From an uncultured bacterium (GTDB lineage Bacteria > Verrucomicrobiota > Lentisphaeria > Victivallales > UBA1829): a stretch of DNA of 64,000 nt. Below are positions 40,499 through 45,744 of the stretch, one piece after another. The stretch is taken from contig CACYZF010000005.1 of NCBI GenBank assembly GCA_902778895.1, positions 124,001 to 188,000 on the forward strand, read 5' to 3'. A program made the position numbers and the translations under genes. A model generated the notes under the pieces. That model was given only the letters and a program-made list of their open reading frames with translations, had not been told where the DNA came from and ran no database searches. How positions within the stretch are numbered: the first letter of the stretch is position 1; each line of letters starts with the position of its first letter.

Positions 40499-41500
40499 TT
40501 AATGCGTTGTGCGGATCAGCGTGACCGGAGCGGACGGTTTCACGCGGATAACGTATTCGCCGAGCGCGGCGGGCAGCAGGGCGGTCATGCATCGCGGGAT
40601 GGTCGTTACCGTGCCGCGGACTTCCACGTCCACTGGGCCGCTGATGGCGGTCAGCAGGTGGAAACTGCGCGTGGAGCGGGTCGTGTCCGGCCAGTCTCCG
40701 GCGAGGCGGAGCTCGTCGCAATGGAACTGCGGACAGCGGTTGATGATCGCGTATTTGCGGTTGCGCATCGCGTTGTCGCTGACGCCCGTGATGCGGGCGG
40801 GGGTACGGTCGATGAAGTCGACGCAGGCGAGCCCTTCTTCCACATGGAGCTCCTGATCGGGATCGGAGATGCCCCAGTCGTTCAGCAGGAAGTCGCTGTT
40901 GCTGTTCTGCTGGATCTCAAGCACCAGGTTTCCCGGGTCGATGCAGTGGATGCGGCCGGCGTTGACGAAATACGCGTCGCCGTTCACGGCGTCGAAACTC
41001 TGAAGCACGTTTTCCACATCGGACGTGGGCAGCAGCTCCAGAAAACGGTGGCGCGTGGCGGTCGGACGGATGCCGACCATGATCTTCGAGCCGGGTTCGG
41101 CGTCCAGCACGTACCACATCTTCGTTTTCGGCTCCGCGCCGTTTCCGATCCGGCGTGCTGCATACTCGTCGGGATTCACCGTCAACGGGAGACGTTCGCC
41201 CGTGTCGAGAATCTTTACCATCAGCGGGAAACGCGCGGCGCGGGTCATGTCGCCGATCAGGTAGGACGGACCGATCATCGTGCAGAGTTCATGGATCGTC
41301 TTCCCGGCCAGCGGGCCGTTCGCGATCACGCTCTCGACGCCCTCGCGGTCGCAGATGTCCCATGCCTCGCCAAACCGGCCTTCCTCCGCGGGGAGTTCAC
41401 GGCCCAGGACACGCGCAAGTTTGCCGCCGCCCCAGGGAGTCCGGCGGTACATCGGTTCGAACAGCAGCGGATACAAATCGTCTTTGGAAAGAGTTGTCAT
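40499..41500 (-). CDS. Mannose-6-phosphate isomerase-like protein lacking metal ligands
   Basis: A 333-residue cupin protein clearly related to class I phosphomannose isomerase: GRFGEAWDICDREGVESVI, ARFPLMVKILDTGERLPLTV, KMWYVLDAEPGSKIMVG and GDAYFVNAGRIHCID. In the family four metal ligands are expected (Gln and His of the QVHP motif, Glu of GKTE, and the His of AGTVHA). Here they read Thr107, Asn109, Lys127 and His185, so three of four are replaced. Either the enzyme is inactive, uses another metal geometry, or does a different reaction (sugar binding, regulation). It heads the unit with argS and a glycosyltransferase. Promoter at 41543-41570. Confidence 0.8.
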   Translation of the reverse strand: MTTLSKDDLYPLLFEPMYRRTPWGGGKLARVLGRELPAEEGRFGEAWDICDREGVESVIANGPLAGKTIHELCTMIGPSYLIGDMTRAARFPLMVKILDTGERLPLTVNPDEYAARRIGNGAEPKTKMWYVLDAEPGSKIMVGIRPTATRHRFLELLPTSDVENVLQSFDAVNGDAYFVNAGRIHCIDPGNLVLEIQQNSNSDFLLNDWGISDPDQELHVEEGLACVDFIDRTPARITGVSDNAMRNRKYAIINRCPQFHCDELRLAGDWPDTTRSTRSFHLLTAISGPVDVEVRGTVTTIPRCMTALLPAALGEYVIRVKPSAPVTLIRTTH

Positions 41501-41570: not shown

Positions 41571-41669
41571 CCTGAACGGCGCGTTTTTTTCGAAAAAAAG
41601 CGTGTGCCGCGCCGGATGTCCGGGCGGGAAGACCGGAGGAAAAACGTGCCGTTATCGCGTTTCGTCCGC

Positions 41670-43817
41670 TCAAACGTGCTTCATGCGCCCGAAGAGGTTG
41701 CCGTATTTCTTCAGGTTCAGCGACTCGACGAACGACGCGATCTTGGTCGTGGTGGAGCACGGGTCGATGGAGGCGTCCATGCAGTCGCCTTCCAGCGCCA
41801 GCATCGGCATGCCGATCTCTTCAAGCTCTTCGCGCAGGAGCTTCGTGAACGGGCGGTCGGCGAGGCTGCAGCGGCCGAATCCGTGCGTGTACAGGATGCA
41901 GCCGGTGAACTTCGCCTTGGCGGAAAGGTCCTTCACATATTTTACGCGCAGTTTCGGGTCCAGGAATCCGGTCGTGAGGAGCTTCCGGGCGAGCGATTCG
42001 TACGGATGCTTCGGGTCGAGCGGAGCCCAGCCGACGTAGTTGGTCTCCTCAAACACGATCGGGGCGTTGCATACGGTCTCGATATAGTCGAGGTGCTTGG
42101 AGTCGTAGAAGGGCGGCAGATGAAGCCAGAGCAGGCGGTGGGTATCGTCGATGGAATAGCGTTTCTCCGCCCATTCCTTTTTCTGCAGCAGTTCCTCGTA
42201 GTAGGTCTTCTGGATATTGACGAGTTCCTGCGTGCCCCACAGCTGGCTGAAGATGACGGCGTTGTAGACCGCCTCCGAGCCGCGGATCAGCGGCGGCGAG
42301 GTCCAGCGCAGTTCGTTGCATTTGCGCGAGTAGTCGGCCGCGAGATTGGAGAGCACGCAAGCCTCTTCCAGACGTGCCGGGTCGAGCTTGCGTCCGAGCG
42401 CTTGTTCCATCTGTTCCACGGACTGGCGCAGGCCGTCGGCGATCTGCCCGACCGCGTTGGTGTTCGTCAGGTTGATCGGGGTGTGCAGGGAGTAGAACCG
42501 GTCCTCGAAGCCGTACGTGCGCGCGAGGTCGGCGAAGATGCGTTCGCCCTGCTGGCACGGCTGGCTGGTGGAGACCGCGAAATCGGGCGTCTTCAGCGGC
42601 AGCCCCTCCAGCATGCGCAGGAAGGAGCAGGTCTGCTGGTCGAATCCCTTGCGTGCGGCGATGTCGAGCGCGGCCTTCACGCGTTTCGAGCTGCGTCCGA
42701 ACAGCGCGGCGTACGTTTCCAGCGTCAGGATGCGCGCGCCGAACGCGTTCAGTATCTCTGTCGGGAAGAAGAGGTTGCGCCAGATGGTCGGCTTATCCTT
42801 GTCGCCGAAGAGGAACGCGCGTTTGTTGCTGGCAACGCGCATGGAGACAGATTTCTGGCGGGTGGGCTCGTACTGGACGGGATCCGGGTCGAGCTTGCCG
42901 CGGAGTTTGCTGTATTCGAGCGCGAGGACGGCCGCGCCGAGCGCGCCCATGACGTTGTGGAATTCCGGGATGATGATCTCGCACCCGGTGATCTCCTTCA
43001 TGAAGTACGCCACGGCATGGTTCGAGGCCACGCCGCCCTGGAACAGGATCGGATGCGAGGGATCGTGGTGCATGAGCATCTGGCCGACGCCGTTCAGGAT
43101 CGTGCGCGCCTGCGCCCGGCATGCTCCGGCGAGCAGATCGCCCATCGGGATGCGGTTTTTGAACTTGTTGATGGACGTGGCGGAGAGCACGGCGCAGACG
43201 GAGCTGAACTCGGTCTTTGCGTCGTAGTTCACCTTATCCGCCATTTCCTCGACCGGGATGCCGAGCTTGGCGGCGACGCTGTCGAGGTAGCTTCCGGTGC
43301 CCGCGGCGCACACGCCGGACATCATGGACACCCACATGCCCATCTTGTGGTTGAAGACCATGCACTTGCTGTCCTGGCCGCCGCAGTCGATGATCGCGTC
43401 CACGTTCGGATAGTAGCGTTTCGCCCCGGCGACGTGCGCGGAGACTTCGCTGACCTGAAAATCGTACGGGATGAAGCGTTTCGTGTCCTCGACGATCTGG
43501 CTGCCCGTCACGACCGTGCAGGCGATGTCCCCGGCATGGATGCCGCTTTCAGCCGCGGCCTTCGCAACCTCGGCGGTCGTTTCGCACGCGATGTTTCCGG
43601 CGTTCAGCCCTGCCTCGGAAAAGAATGTGGCCAATGTCTTTTTCAGCGCGCCCATGTTGCAGCGTCCGCAGGAAGTGCAGCGGCCCGTGCAGGAAAGCTG
43701 ACCGGAATCCACCGGCTTTGTGCGCTGGTAGGTCGTATGGACCACGCGCCCCTTGTCGGTGATGACGACGGCTTTGAAAGTCGTGGAGCCGATATCGATC
43801 CCGAGGTAATATTTCAT
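41670..43817 (-). CDS. Single-chain ATPase activase fused to 2-hydroxyacyl-CoA dehydratase-type Fe-S protein
   Basis: A 715-residue fusion. Residues 1-320 are a BadF/BcrA/HgdC-type activase: GIDIGSTTFKAVVI, DCGGQDSKCM, and the bridging-cluster cysteines Cys170 (GVCAAGTGSYLD) and Cys208 (SVCAVLSATS). The rest is an HgdB/BcrB-like dehydratase subunit with many cysteines (PCQQGERIF, GCILYTHGFGRCS, LEGDCMDASIDPC). Activases normally form a separate homodimer that passes electrons, with ATP hydrolysis, to the second component. Joining both is unusual. A four-cysteine C-x3-C-x2-C-x2-C (43, 47, 50, 53) is inserted after the first ATPase strands. Substrate unknown: dehydration of a hydroxyacyl-CoA, or reduction of a small molecule as in double-cubane cluster proteins. 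Single gene with own promoter. Confidence 0.8.
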   Translation of the reverse strand: MKYYLGIDIGSTTFKAVVITDKGRVVHTTYQRTKPVDSGQLSCTGRCTSCGRCNMGALKKTLATFFSEAGLNAGNIACETTAEVAKAAAESGIHAGDIACTVVTGSQIVEDTKRFIPYDFQVSEVSAHVAGAKRYYPNVDAIIDCGGQDSKCMVFNHKMGMWVSMMSGVCAAGTGSYLDSVAAKLGIPVEEMADKVNYDAKTEFSSVCAVLSATSINKFKNRIPMGDLLAGACRAQARTILNGVGQMLMHHDPSHPILFQGGVASNHAVAYFMKEITGCEIIIPEFHNVMGALGAAVLALEYSKLRGKLDPDPVQYEPTRQKSVSMRVASNKRAFLFGDKDKPTIWRNLFFPTEILNAFGARILTLETYAALFGRSSKRVKAALDIAARKGFDQQTCSFLRMLEGLPLKTPDFAVSTSQPCQQGERIFADLARTYGFEDRFYSLHTPINLTNTNAVGQIADGLRQSVEQMEQALGRKLDPARLEEACVLSNLAADYSRKCNELRWTSPPLIRGSEAVYNAVIFSQLWGTQELVNIQKTYYEELLQKKEWAEKRYSIDDTHRLLWLHLPPFYDSKHLDYIETVCNAPIVFEETNYVGWAPLDPKHPYESLARKLLTTGFLDPKLRVKYVKDLSAKAKFTGCILYTHGFGRCSLADRPFTKLLREELEEIGMPMLALEGDCMDASIDPCSTTTKIASFVESLNLKKYGNLFGRMKHV

Positions 43818-43865
43818 CGATGGTACCCAAAACAGTTTTGTGACTGGATAAAAAATTATCTATAT

Positions 43866-43894
43866 AATATACCCCTTTTTCGCGCCTTTTCCAA
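43866..43894 (-). promoter_or_regulatory. Promoter for activase-dehydratase fusion
   Basis: TTGGAA (43889-43894) and TATATT (43866-43871), spacer 17, about 48 bases before the ATG. Confidence 0.65.
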
Positions 43895-43916
43895 TCGAAA
43901 ACGAAAAATAAAAGAC

Positions 43917-44095
43917 AATTCAGGGAGGGGAGGGCAAGCCCTCCACGGCGGATGTGTCCGGCTCCGCTCGGACACAAGGGCAAACCCTTGACTGCGGTAG
44001 TGCGCGGCTTACGCTCCGGCACGATAGGGCGAATAAGGCCGATAAGACAAAATGAGGCGGACAGGGGAAATCCGCCCTATCCGCCTTAGAATCCC
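43917..44095. repeat. Composite hairpin repeat, copy A
   Basis: An intergenic array of short inverted repeats: GGAGGGCAAGCCCTCC (43928-43943), a GTGTCCG/CGGACAC stem (43954-43975), AAGGGCAAACCCTT (43976-43989), a GTGC.../...GCAC stem (44000-44022) and a GGCGGA/TCCGCC stem (44057-44076). It is related over about 135 bases to copy B (45927-46173), in the same orientation. It ends 15 bases before the FG-GAP stop. It looks like a REP/BIME-type mosaic, not a protein-coding or CRISPR sequence. Most of the 292 bases between flanking genes is this repeat. Confidence 0.75.
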
Positions 44096-44109: not shown

Positions 44110-45744
44110 CTATGCGAGGACGTGAATGATGCTCTGGTCGTTTATGCCGATTTCACTGTAATTGACCCCGGCCGACCACCGGGACATGTCGCCGCCGGCA
44201 TAGGTGCCCATCATCTCGGTCGAGATCTGGCGTACCAGCAGGTCGTCTTTGCCGTCGCCGTCGGAGTCGAATGCGCCCACAATGCCCCAGTCGGAACCGT
44301 CGATCTGGCCGAGCGACGTCCACGCGTCGGCGTTTCCGTCCGCGAGCAGGACCACGCAGTTCAGTCCCTCGTTGAACAGCACGATGTCGTCCTTGCCGTC
44401 GCCCGCGAAATCGCCGACCGCGCCGAATTCCCAGCCGGACCAGTTCAGGCCGCCCAGGCTCGTCAGCGTGCCGTCCAGGTCGACCGAGTAGAACTGTCCG
44501 CCGTACAGCGACATCAGCACGGAATCCTTGCCGTCGCCGTCGAAGTCGCCGCATCCGAGCATCGTCCAGTTCGCATCGAACCAGCCCGCGATCCCGGTCC
44601 AGTTGTCCGTGCCGTCCGTCCAGACGCCCAGCGCGCCGAGCTCCTGCGCGTGCCACACGACCGACGGCGCGTCCGAACCCGTCAGGTTTCCGGCCTTGTA
44701 CTTCCAGTCGATGCCGTCCGGGTTGTTCAGCGTGCCGATCTCATGCCAGCCGTCCGCATTATAACTGATTCCGATACTTTTCGTATTTCCTCTGGAATCC
44801 ATGGTACTGATGGATTCCATCTGAACACCGCTTTCCGCGTTTCTCCAGAGCGTGGAAATCTGAATGTCGCTCTTCGGCAGGGGCCAGTGATCTCCCTGTG
44901 CCTGGAATTCCTTATATGCCGCGAAAGATTCCCCGTAGGACAGGTCGTCGATGGTCGGTTCCCTGTATTGGGATTTCGGAATCAACTGGATAACGCCGCC
45001 GGGCAAAGTCTGGCGAAGAGCGACGATCTCGCATGAAAGGTCCAGCCAGTTTTCCCTGAGAAACGCGAGATTCTGCGAGATGGACGATTCCGGTATTTCC
45101 TCCTGAACCTTTGCTTTCGCACTATTATACAGCGTACAGAACTGCCGGTACGTCATCTGGGAAATATCCAGGACAGCTTCGAACGGGGGAATGGAGACAA
45201 GGTCCTCAATCGGAACTATCAATTCCTCAGGTATCTTCAGGATAACATCTTCCTTAGAAATTATCAAATACTCTGGTGTCTTCAGCAAATCGGGATTGAT
45301 TTTCAGGACGACTCTTTCCTCCCCGTTTAGCGATACCGTAATGATTCCATCATCCATCGGCGGGATGATCTCGGATTCAGGAATTGCTCCAATATAGTTT
45401 TTTGACCATGCCCCTCCATTCTGTTCGGTGTTGACAGTTCCGTTTTCCTCCGTGTCAGTGATACTCTCTTTCAACATTTCAACAATCTCTGTTTGTTCGT
45501 CTTCGCCGAAAGAAGACAGGAGACCGCGCAGAATATCATTGTATTCTTTTGATCCGGGTTCAACACGCCTCATTCCGTTATTGTTCATTACTTCTTCCAA
45601 GTCCAGCGATAACGTAATGATTCCATCATCCATCGGCGGGATGATCTCGGATTCAGGAATTGCTCCAATATAGTTTTTTGACCATGCCCCTCCAACCTCT
45701 TCGGTGTTGATAATTTTGTTTTTCTCTTCGATGGTTTCGCTCAT
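44110..45744 (-). CDS. FG-GAP/VCBS repeat protein with duplicated N-terminal segment
   Basis: A 544-residue acidic protein. The C-terminal 200 residues contain at least three beta-propeller blades with calcium-binding loops DFDGDGKD, DFAGDGKD and DSDGDGKD, each followed by a Trp-rich strand, as in FG-GAP/VCBS proteins that sit on the cell surface. The N-terminal 150 residues carry the 27-residue segment starting GGAWSKNYIGAIPES at 18 and again at 110, with no signal peptide, so how it would be exported is unclear. The gene is bracketed by hairpin repeats A and B between conserved housekeeping genes, suggesting a mobile or recently inserted cassette. No catalytic motif is visible. Confidence 0.75.
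   Translation of the reverse strand: MSETIEEKNKIINTEEVGGAWSKNYIGAIPESEIIPPMDDGIITLSLDLEEVMNNNGMRRVEPGSKEYNDILRGLLSSFGEDEQTEIVEMLKESITDTEENGTVNTEQNGGAWSKNYIGAIPESEIIPPMDDGIITVSLNGEERVVLKINPDLLKTPEYLIISKEDVILKIPEELIVPIEDLVSIPPFEAVLDISQMTYRQFCTLYNSAKAKVQEEIPESSISQNLAFLRENWLDLSCEIVALRQTLPGGVIQLIPKSQYREPTIDDLSYGESFAAYKEFQAQGDHWPLPKSDIQISTLWRNAESGVQMESISTMDSRGNTKSIGISYNADGWHEIGTLNNPDGIDWKYKAGNLTGSDAPSVVWHAQELGALGVWTDGTDNWTGIAGWFDANWTMLGCGDFDGDGKDSVLMSLYGGQFYSVDLDGTLTSLGGLNWSGWEFGAVGDFAGDGKDDIVLFNEGLNCVVLLADGNADAWTSLGQIDGSDWGIVGAFDSDGDGKDDLLVRQISTEMMGTYAGGDMSRWSAGVNYSEIGINDQSIIHVLA
45329..45418. repeat. Internal 90-bp duplication in FG-GAP gene, copy 1
   Basis: Identical to 45605-45694 except for one base (45336 C, 45612 A). 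The offset of 276 bases is a multiple of three, so the frame is kept and residues 110-136 repeat residues 18-44. Near-perfect DNA identity points to a recent duplication or gene conversion. Confidence 0.95.
45605..45694. repeat. Internal 90-bp duplication in FG-GAP gene, copy 2
   Basis: Partner of 45329-45418, encoding residues 18-44 of the FG-GAP protein. Confidence 0.95.

Follow-up and report, generated by a model that had tools for sequence, protein, structure and literature searches.

An activase and an HGD-D domain encoded by a single gene

The window analyzed here is a 64,000-nt stretch of contig CACYZF010000005.1 from an uncultured bacterium of the order Victivallales. Its minus strand contains an ORF at positions 41670-43817 that starts with ATG and encodes 715 residues, and which both the list of ORFs and the domain matches identify as a genuine gene. 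Its layout is as follows.

41670..43817, minus strand: fused activase-HGD-D protein, whole gene, 715 aa (ORF, Pfam, full-length homologues)
42921..43805, minus strand: activase domain (ASKHA ATPase, BcrAD_BadFG), residues 5-299 (Pfam; VIA Z score of 27.5 to 4ehu_B over residues 2-306)
41718..42773, minus strand: HGD-D catalytic domain, residues 349-700 (Pfam; VIA Z scores of 37.1 to HadB 3o3m_A and 36.7 to BzdO 8s02_C)
43536..43601, minus strand: activase insert of about 22 residues (approximately residues 73-94), present in the genus of the window only (alignment; pLDDT below 50 for residues 77-92)

Pfam places residues 5-299 among the activases (BcrAD_BadFG, PF01869; 94.9 bits for a cut-off of 31.5) and residues 349-700 in the HGD-D family (PF06050; 148.3 bits for a cut-off of 28.4), the latter with a HadB/BzdO fold, while the TIGR00241 match (116.2) falls slightly below its own cut-off of 125.4. 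The occurrence of both Pfam domains in one 715-aa ORF confirms the claim of an earlier note on this DNA that the activase and its Fe-S partner form one polypeptide. The single-chain form is also found in most homologues, as open frames of approximately 690-750 aa.

An AlphaFold2 model of the fused protein, computed with 26 aligned homologues (mean pLDDT of 82.3, pTM of 0.84), was compared with solved structures using VIA. The N-terminal half resembles the activase 4ehu_B (rmsd of 2.4 over 252 aligned residues), and the HGD-D half resembles HadB (rmsd of 2.5 over 372 aligned residues) and BzdO (rmsd of 2.7 over 381 aligned residues). The match of this half to the double-cubane protein 7yzm_A is poorer (Z score of 30.4, rmsd of 3.1, 363 aligned residues).

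Antisense to the fused gene lies a 795-aa open frame (window positions 41604-43991, plus strand). Such frames recur opposite the fused gene in high-GC loci and resemble composition shadows; antisense shadow ORFs also dominated a first clustering of gene neighbourhoods.

A four-cysteine insertion specific to the fused proteins

Conservation was evaluated on 140 full-length ORFs, from which identical and own-genome copies were removed to give 99 proteins including the query, all at least 55% identical to it. These form 65 clusters at 90% identity, with a lowest pairwise identity of 52% between representatives, and were aligned as stop-to-stop translations, in which a few residues may precede the true start. 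Loci L138 and L139, which match only from about residue 150, past the motif described below, were not counted, and none of L053-L060 and L141-L150 is a full-length fused protein. ORFs of 650-717 aa at L141, L143 and L144 were considered as further fusions and rejected, as Pfam finds in them a C-terminal activase match only. Across the 99 proteins, 162 of the 715 positions are invariant, including cysteines 43, 47, 50, 53, 170, 208, 233, 397, 421, 650, 679 and 687; C487 occurs in 96 of them and the remaining eight of the 21 cysteines are variable. Two cysteine groups lie in the activase.

43659..43691, minus strand: C43-x3-C47-x2-C50-x2-C53, inserted in the activase after strand 25-32 and before helix 54-68 (conservation, alignment, predicted secondary structure)
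43194..43310, minus strand: C170 and C208, predicted dimer-interface [4Fe-4S] cysteines of the activase (invariance; caaGtG and ssxC motifs of 4eht and 1hux)

The earlier note had reported an extra four-cysteine motif at residues 43-53, inside the ATPase domain, and it is present as described, within the activase span. Conservation of these cysteines in homologues, the check set beforehand on which this proposal was to stand or fall, was found in 99 of 99 distinct full-length proteins. Shuffling the protein 20,000 times produced the pattern C-x3-C-x2-C-x2-C in 5 cases, and the model is of modest confidence around it (block mean pLDDT of 61-75 for residues 41-60). All seven unfused activases of the same order have a deletion at this place and keep C170 and C208, and the motif is missing from all 16 other activase ORFs of the phylum, a set that includes most ORFs of these seven loci and four proteins with two activase domains and DUF2229 (L145-L148). 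Alignments with solved activases likewise show a gap at the motif position, of 14 residues for 9gai_C and nine for 7yyl_E. Judging from these alignments, the four-cysteine site is a conserved feature specific to the fused proteins. It probably accommodates an extra metal cluster in the ATPase; alternatively, four cysteines so closely spaced could bind zinc.

C170 and C208 are cysteines in all 99 fused homologues and in all seven unfused activases, which gives the fused protein the two-cysteine signature of activases. C233, together with C679 and C687 of the second half, is invariant in the fused family and has no counterpart in unfused relatives; going by sequence conservation, these three might make up a further metal site or complete one.

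Distribution of the fused family

Among 80 related genomes, 56 contain a match to the protein and 56 a match to PF06050. Three (G036, G051 and G065) carry unfused proteins only, so that the fused gene is present in 53, of which G013, G016 and G032 show it in pieces only. Of 387 genomes sampled from the phylum, 88 have a match at E ≤ 1e-20 and 67 a full-length one; eight of the latter belong to other orders of the class and three to one family outside it. The best 80 of 488 relatives in a scan of named genomes are mostly labelled Lentisphaeria or Victivallales, and also include a Kiritimatiellae set and one Bacteroidaceae bin. In a quick, midpoint-rooted tree of 50 rows, the reading of which is limited by two long branches, six Kiritimatiellia-labelled rows fall on one side of a branch (98), grouping with gut Victivallales rows and the query. 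In this survey, centred on its own phylum, the fused family is thus seen in Lentisphaeria and Kiritimatiellae-type genomes, and its hosts are gut and sediment bacteria of a little-studied group. A PHROGs search with the protein gave no match, and none of the 35 records with activase-like matches in a plasmid collection covers 80% of the protein.

Some relatives (L163-L168 and L053-L058) have a further, separate cluster of HGD-D proteins and an unfused activase, with double-cubane-type cysteines.

A catalytic half with conserved active-site residues and altered thioester-contact positions

The residues of interest in the HGD-D half were located by profile alignment.

42555..42629, minus strand: C397 and C421, first two ligands of the predicted catalytic [4Fe-4S] (BzdO C95 and C128), invariant in 99/99
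41868..41870, minus strand: C650, third ligand of the predicted catalytic [4Fe-4S] (BzdO C380), invariant in 99/99
42717..42719, minus strand: E367, aligned with BzdO Glu65 (catalytic acid/base), invariant in 99/99
41757..41783, minus strand: C679 and C687 (GDCxDxxxDPC), two additional cysteines that do not vary in the fused family (99/99; non-cysteine in 8/8 unfused HGD-D proteins of the order)

PMC11971306 gives C95, C128 and C380 as ligands of the catalytic [4Fe-4S] of BzdO and Glu65 as the catalytic acid/base, and the fused protein retains all four as C397, C421, C650 and E367, that is, the three-cysteine site and glutamate of 2-hydroxyacyl-CoA dehydratases. In BzdO, the thioester oxygen is contacted by Tyr97, Gln274 and Tyr298 (PMC11971306). 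At these positions the profile alignment places Phe399, Leu567 and Glu591, each found in 99 of 99 fused proteins, the pairing of Glu591 with Tyr298 being counted beyond the end of the printed alignment and the least certain of the three. These altered contact residues suggest a different substrate, and we concur with the earlier note in leaving its identity open.

The ligands of the double cubane of BzdN are Cys36, Cys73, Cys100, Cys263, Cys293 and Cys327 (PMC11971306). Three of these six [8Fe-9S] cysteine positions are non-cysteine in the fused proteins, whereas unfused HGD-D proteins of the same order carry cysteines of this double-cubane type. The benzoyl-CoA reductase models all score below their cut-offs (TIGR02259, 57.7 against 578; TIGR03192, 43.5 against 380.2; TIGR02261, 35.8 against 312.85; TIGR03191, 24.1 against 448.6).

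A missing second subunit and an adjoining cupin

The genome of the window has one PF06050 match and one PF01869 match, both of which are the fused gene itself, and thus lacks matches for two subunits plus a separate activator. The fused protein is the sole HGD-D protein in 48 of the 53 genomes that carry its gene, additional ones being found in G013, G044, G053, G059 and G063. In known dehydratases the activator, itself a homodimer, delivers an electron first to the cluster in one subunit, from where it moves on to the catalytic cluster in another, different subunit (PMC8473912). Since most genomes have no other HGD-D protein, a homodimer is the simplest assembly, from which the usual relay subunit is missing. 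We infer that the four-cysteine site is for this reason a sensible candidate for the place where electrons enter or are relayed; a relay via the second catalytic domain of the homodimer would require no extra cluster.

Counting by hand from gene coordinates, we found a Cupin_2 protein of 115-121 aa encoded downstream of the fused gene, on the same strand and at a gap of at most about 112 nt, in 24 of 53 genomes. We quote this number rather than the 51 of 144 loci obtained by tblastn because many of those loci represent one genome twice or are bordered by little sequence. Residues H56, H58, E63 and H97 of the cupin are invariant in A3 and correspond to the His/Glu metal-site pattern of cupins. 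One of these 24 genomes, G019, encodes an in-frame activase-HGD-D-cupin fusion of 816 aa (L041:3635-6082, minus strand; also L106), which may be an assembly error. In the genome of the window the cupin is encoded elsewhere (G000:C3:136764-137111, 50% identity). Co-occurrence is moderate: of the 53 genomes with the fused gene 47 also have the cupin, as do 18 of the 27 that lack the gene; as it also occurs in the latter, the link is supportive and not strict. The adjoining small cupin and the fused enzyme probably serve one and the same step or pathway.

A profile search of the window's own genome found no match to the class I or class III CoA-transferases (PF01144 and PF02515), which argues against classical 2-hydroxyacyl-CoA fermentation, CoA ligases being a possible alternative. 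The neighbours scanned in the window are a phosphomannose-isomerase-like gene, prfB, a KDPG aldolase, a glycosyltransferase and a 544-aa protein; none fits a CoA-ester fermentation pathway, and an operon of that kind was rejected.

Directly downstream of the fused gene, the phosphomannose-isomerase-like gene (window positions 40499-41500, minus strand) has a weak Pfam match (E of 4.2e-6), and its homologues adjoin the fused gene in the same genus. Its product presumably has a cupin fold. Upstream, the 544-aa protein (window positions 44110-45744, minus strand) contains internal repeats and has no Pfam or NCBIfam match.

Proposed mechanism and alternatives

The protein is a conserved, single-chain variant of the 2-hydroxyacyl-CoA dehydratase/benzoyl-CoA reductase/DCCP kind and probably forms a homodimer. 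We propose, with a confidence evenly divided between belief and doubt, that it is a self-contained, homo-oligomeric, single-chain ATP-driven radical dehydratase or reductase ("archerase") with an added Fe-S site in its ATPase. The chain would form a homodimer in which the two activase halves share one [4Fe-4S], held by C170 and C208 from each chain. ATP turnover would drive one low-potential electron into an open-sided [4Fe-4S] at C397, C421 and C650, and thereby start radical chemistry, of the ketyl or the reductive type, on a substrate that need not be a CoA ester. The four-cysteine site would bind an additional [4Fe-4S], most likely accepting electrons from ferredoxin or flavodoxin, or relaying them, the relay subunit having been lost. 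A bolder version, which we advance tentatively and consider rather unlikely as a whole, holds that this second [4Fe-4S] of the ATPase itself does the work of the relay subunit that was lost, and that electron entry, ATP-driven firing and catalysis all take place in one homodimer with about five [4Fe-4S] clusters (20 Fe), acting on a substrate new to the family and perhaps not a CoA ester.

The alternative that survives best, although we find it doubtful, is an ordinary 2-hydroxyacyl-CoA dehydratase with activator and catalytic subunit merely fused, the four cysteines forming a zinc site or structural knot that stabilises the ATPase. HadB is indeed the best fold match, the catalytic cysteine triad and glutamate are retained, and four cysteines within 11 residues suit zinc too; yet an ordinary enzyme sits poorly with the second HGD-D subunit missing from 48 of 53 genomes, the want of a PF01144 or PF02515 match in its own genome, a score of 47.2 against the cut-off of 750 for the HadB model NF052455, and invariant Phe399, Leu567 and Glu591 (the last mapping being the least certain) where BzdO has its thioester contacts. 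More improbable still is that the four-cysteine site serves as a cluster-loading or redox-sensing element controlling the firing of the activase, with no role in electron relay. Its invariance and its location within the activase would suit such a role, as would the oxygen sensitivity of the activase cluster in known systems (PMC8473912), but unfused activases manage without the motif. The suggestion of the earlier note that the protein is a fused double-cubane protein reducing small molecules was rejected as highly improbable: membership of the HGD-D family, an NF040772 match (E of 1.4e-8) and an expected homodimer, as in DCCP, speak for it, but that match reaches 34.2 bits for a cut-off of 350, the cysteines of the distal cubane are replaced by Asn348 (99/99) and two deletions, and the HGD-D half is closer in fold to the single-cubane HadB and BzdO.

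To our knowledge, the coupling of ATP hydrolysis to electrons outside the usual redox range of biology is limited to a handful of enzyme systems, which are difficult to study as their components tend to meet for short periods only. With all components in one chain from one gene, and possibly with an added cluster, the electron path, the ATP stoichiometry and the minimal parts would become measurable in a single protein. If the proposed archerase is real, Lentisphaeria and Kiritimatiellae-type bacteria of the gut and subsurface would also turn out to carry out a reaction not known so far. Titles and abstract starts in the open-access literature yielded no paper on a fused activase-HGD-D protein with this motif, and nothing under the spelling C-x3-C-x2-C-x2-C; an earlier mention in the double-cubane papers is possible.

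Comparison with known systems

Four known systems offer points of comparison. The proteins with two activase domains and DUF2229 (two PF01869 matches and PF09989; L145-L148) come from the same phylum and are likewise single chains in which activase domains are fused to a partner, but they have DUF2229 and a second activase domain in place of any HGD-D match, and no four-cysteine motif. DCCP with DCCP-R (6eno, 7yyl) shares an ATP activase and a single type of HGD-D subunit per system; unlike it, the fused protein lacks the distal cubane cysteines, has its activase fused and adds the four-cysteine insertion. With the class I benzoyl-CoA reductases BzdNOPQ and MbdONPQ (8s02, 9gai), the aligned and conserved C95, C128, C380 and Glu65 are held in common, whereas the fused protein has no BzdN-like double-cubane subunit, scores far below the benzoyl-CoA reductase cut-offs and carries Gly (85/99) or Ala (14/99) at the His131 position. 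HadBC and its activator (3o3m, 4eht) share the activase fold and cysteine pair as well as a HadB-type domain with three cysteines and a glutamate (HadB position 55). As described in PMC8473912, that system consists of a separate activator and two different HGD-D subunits, whereas the fused protein is one chain that has no second subunit in most genomes and carries four extra cysteines in addition to C233, C679 and C687.
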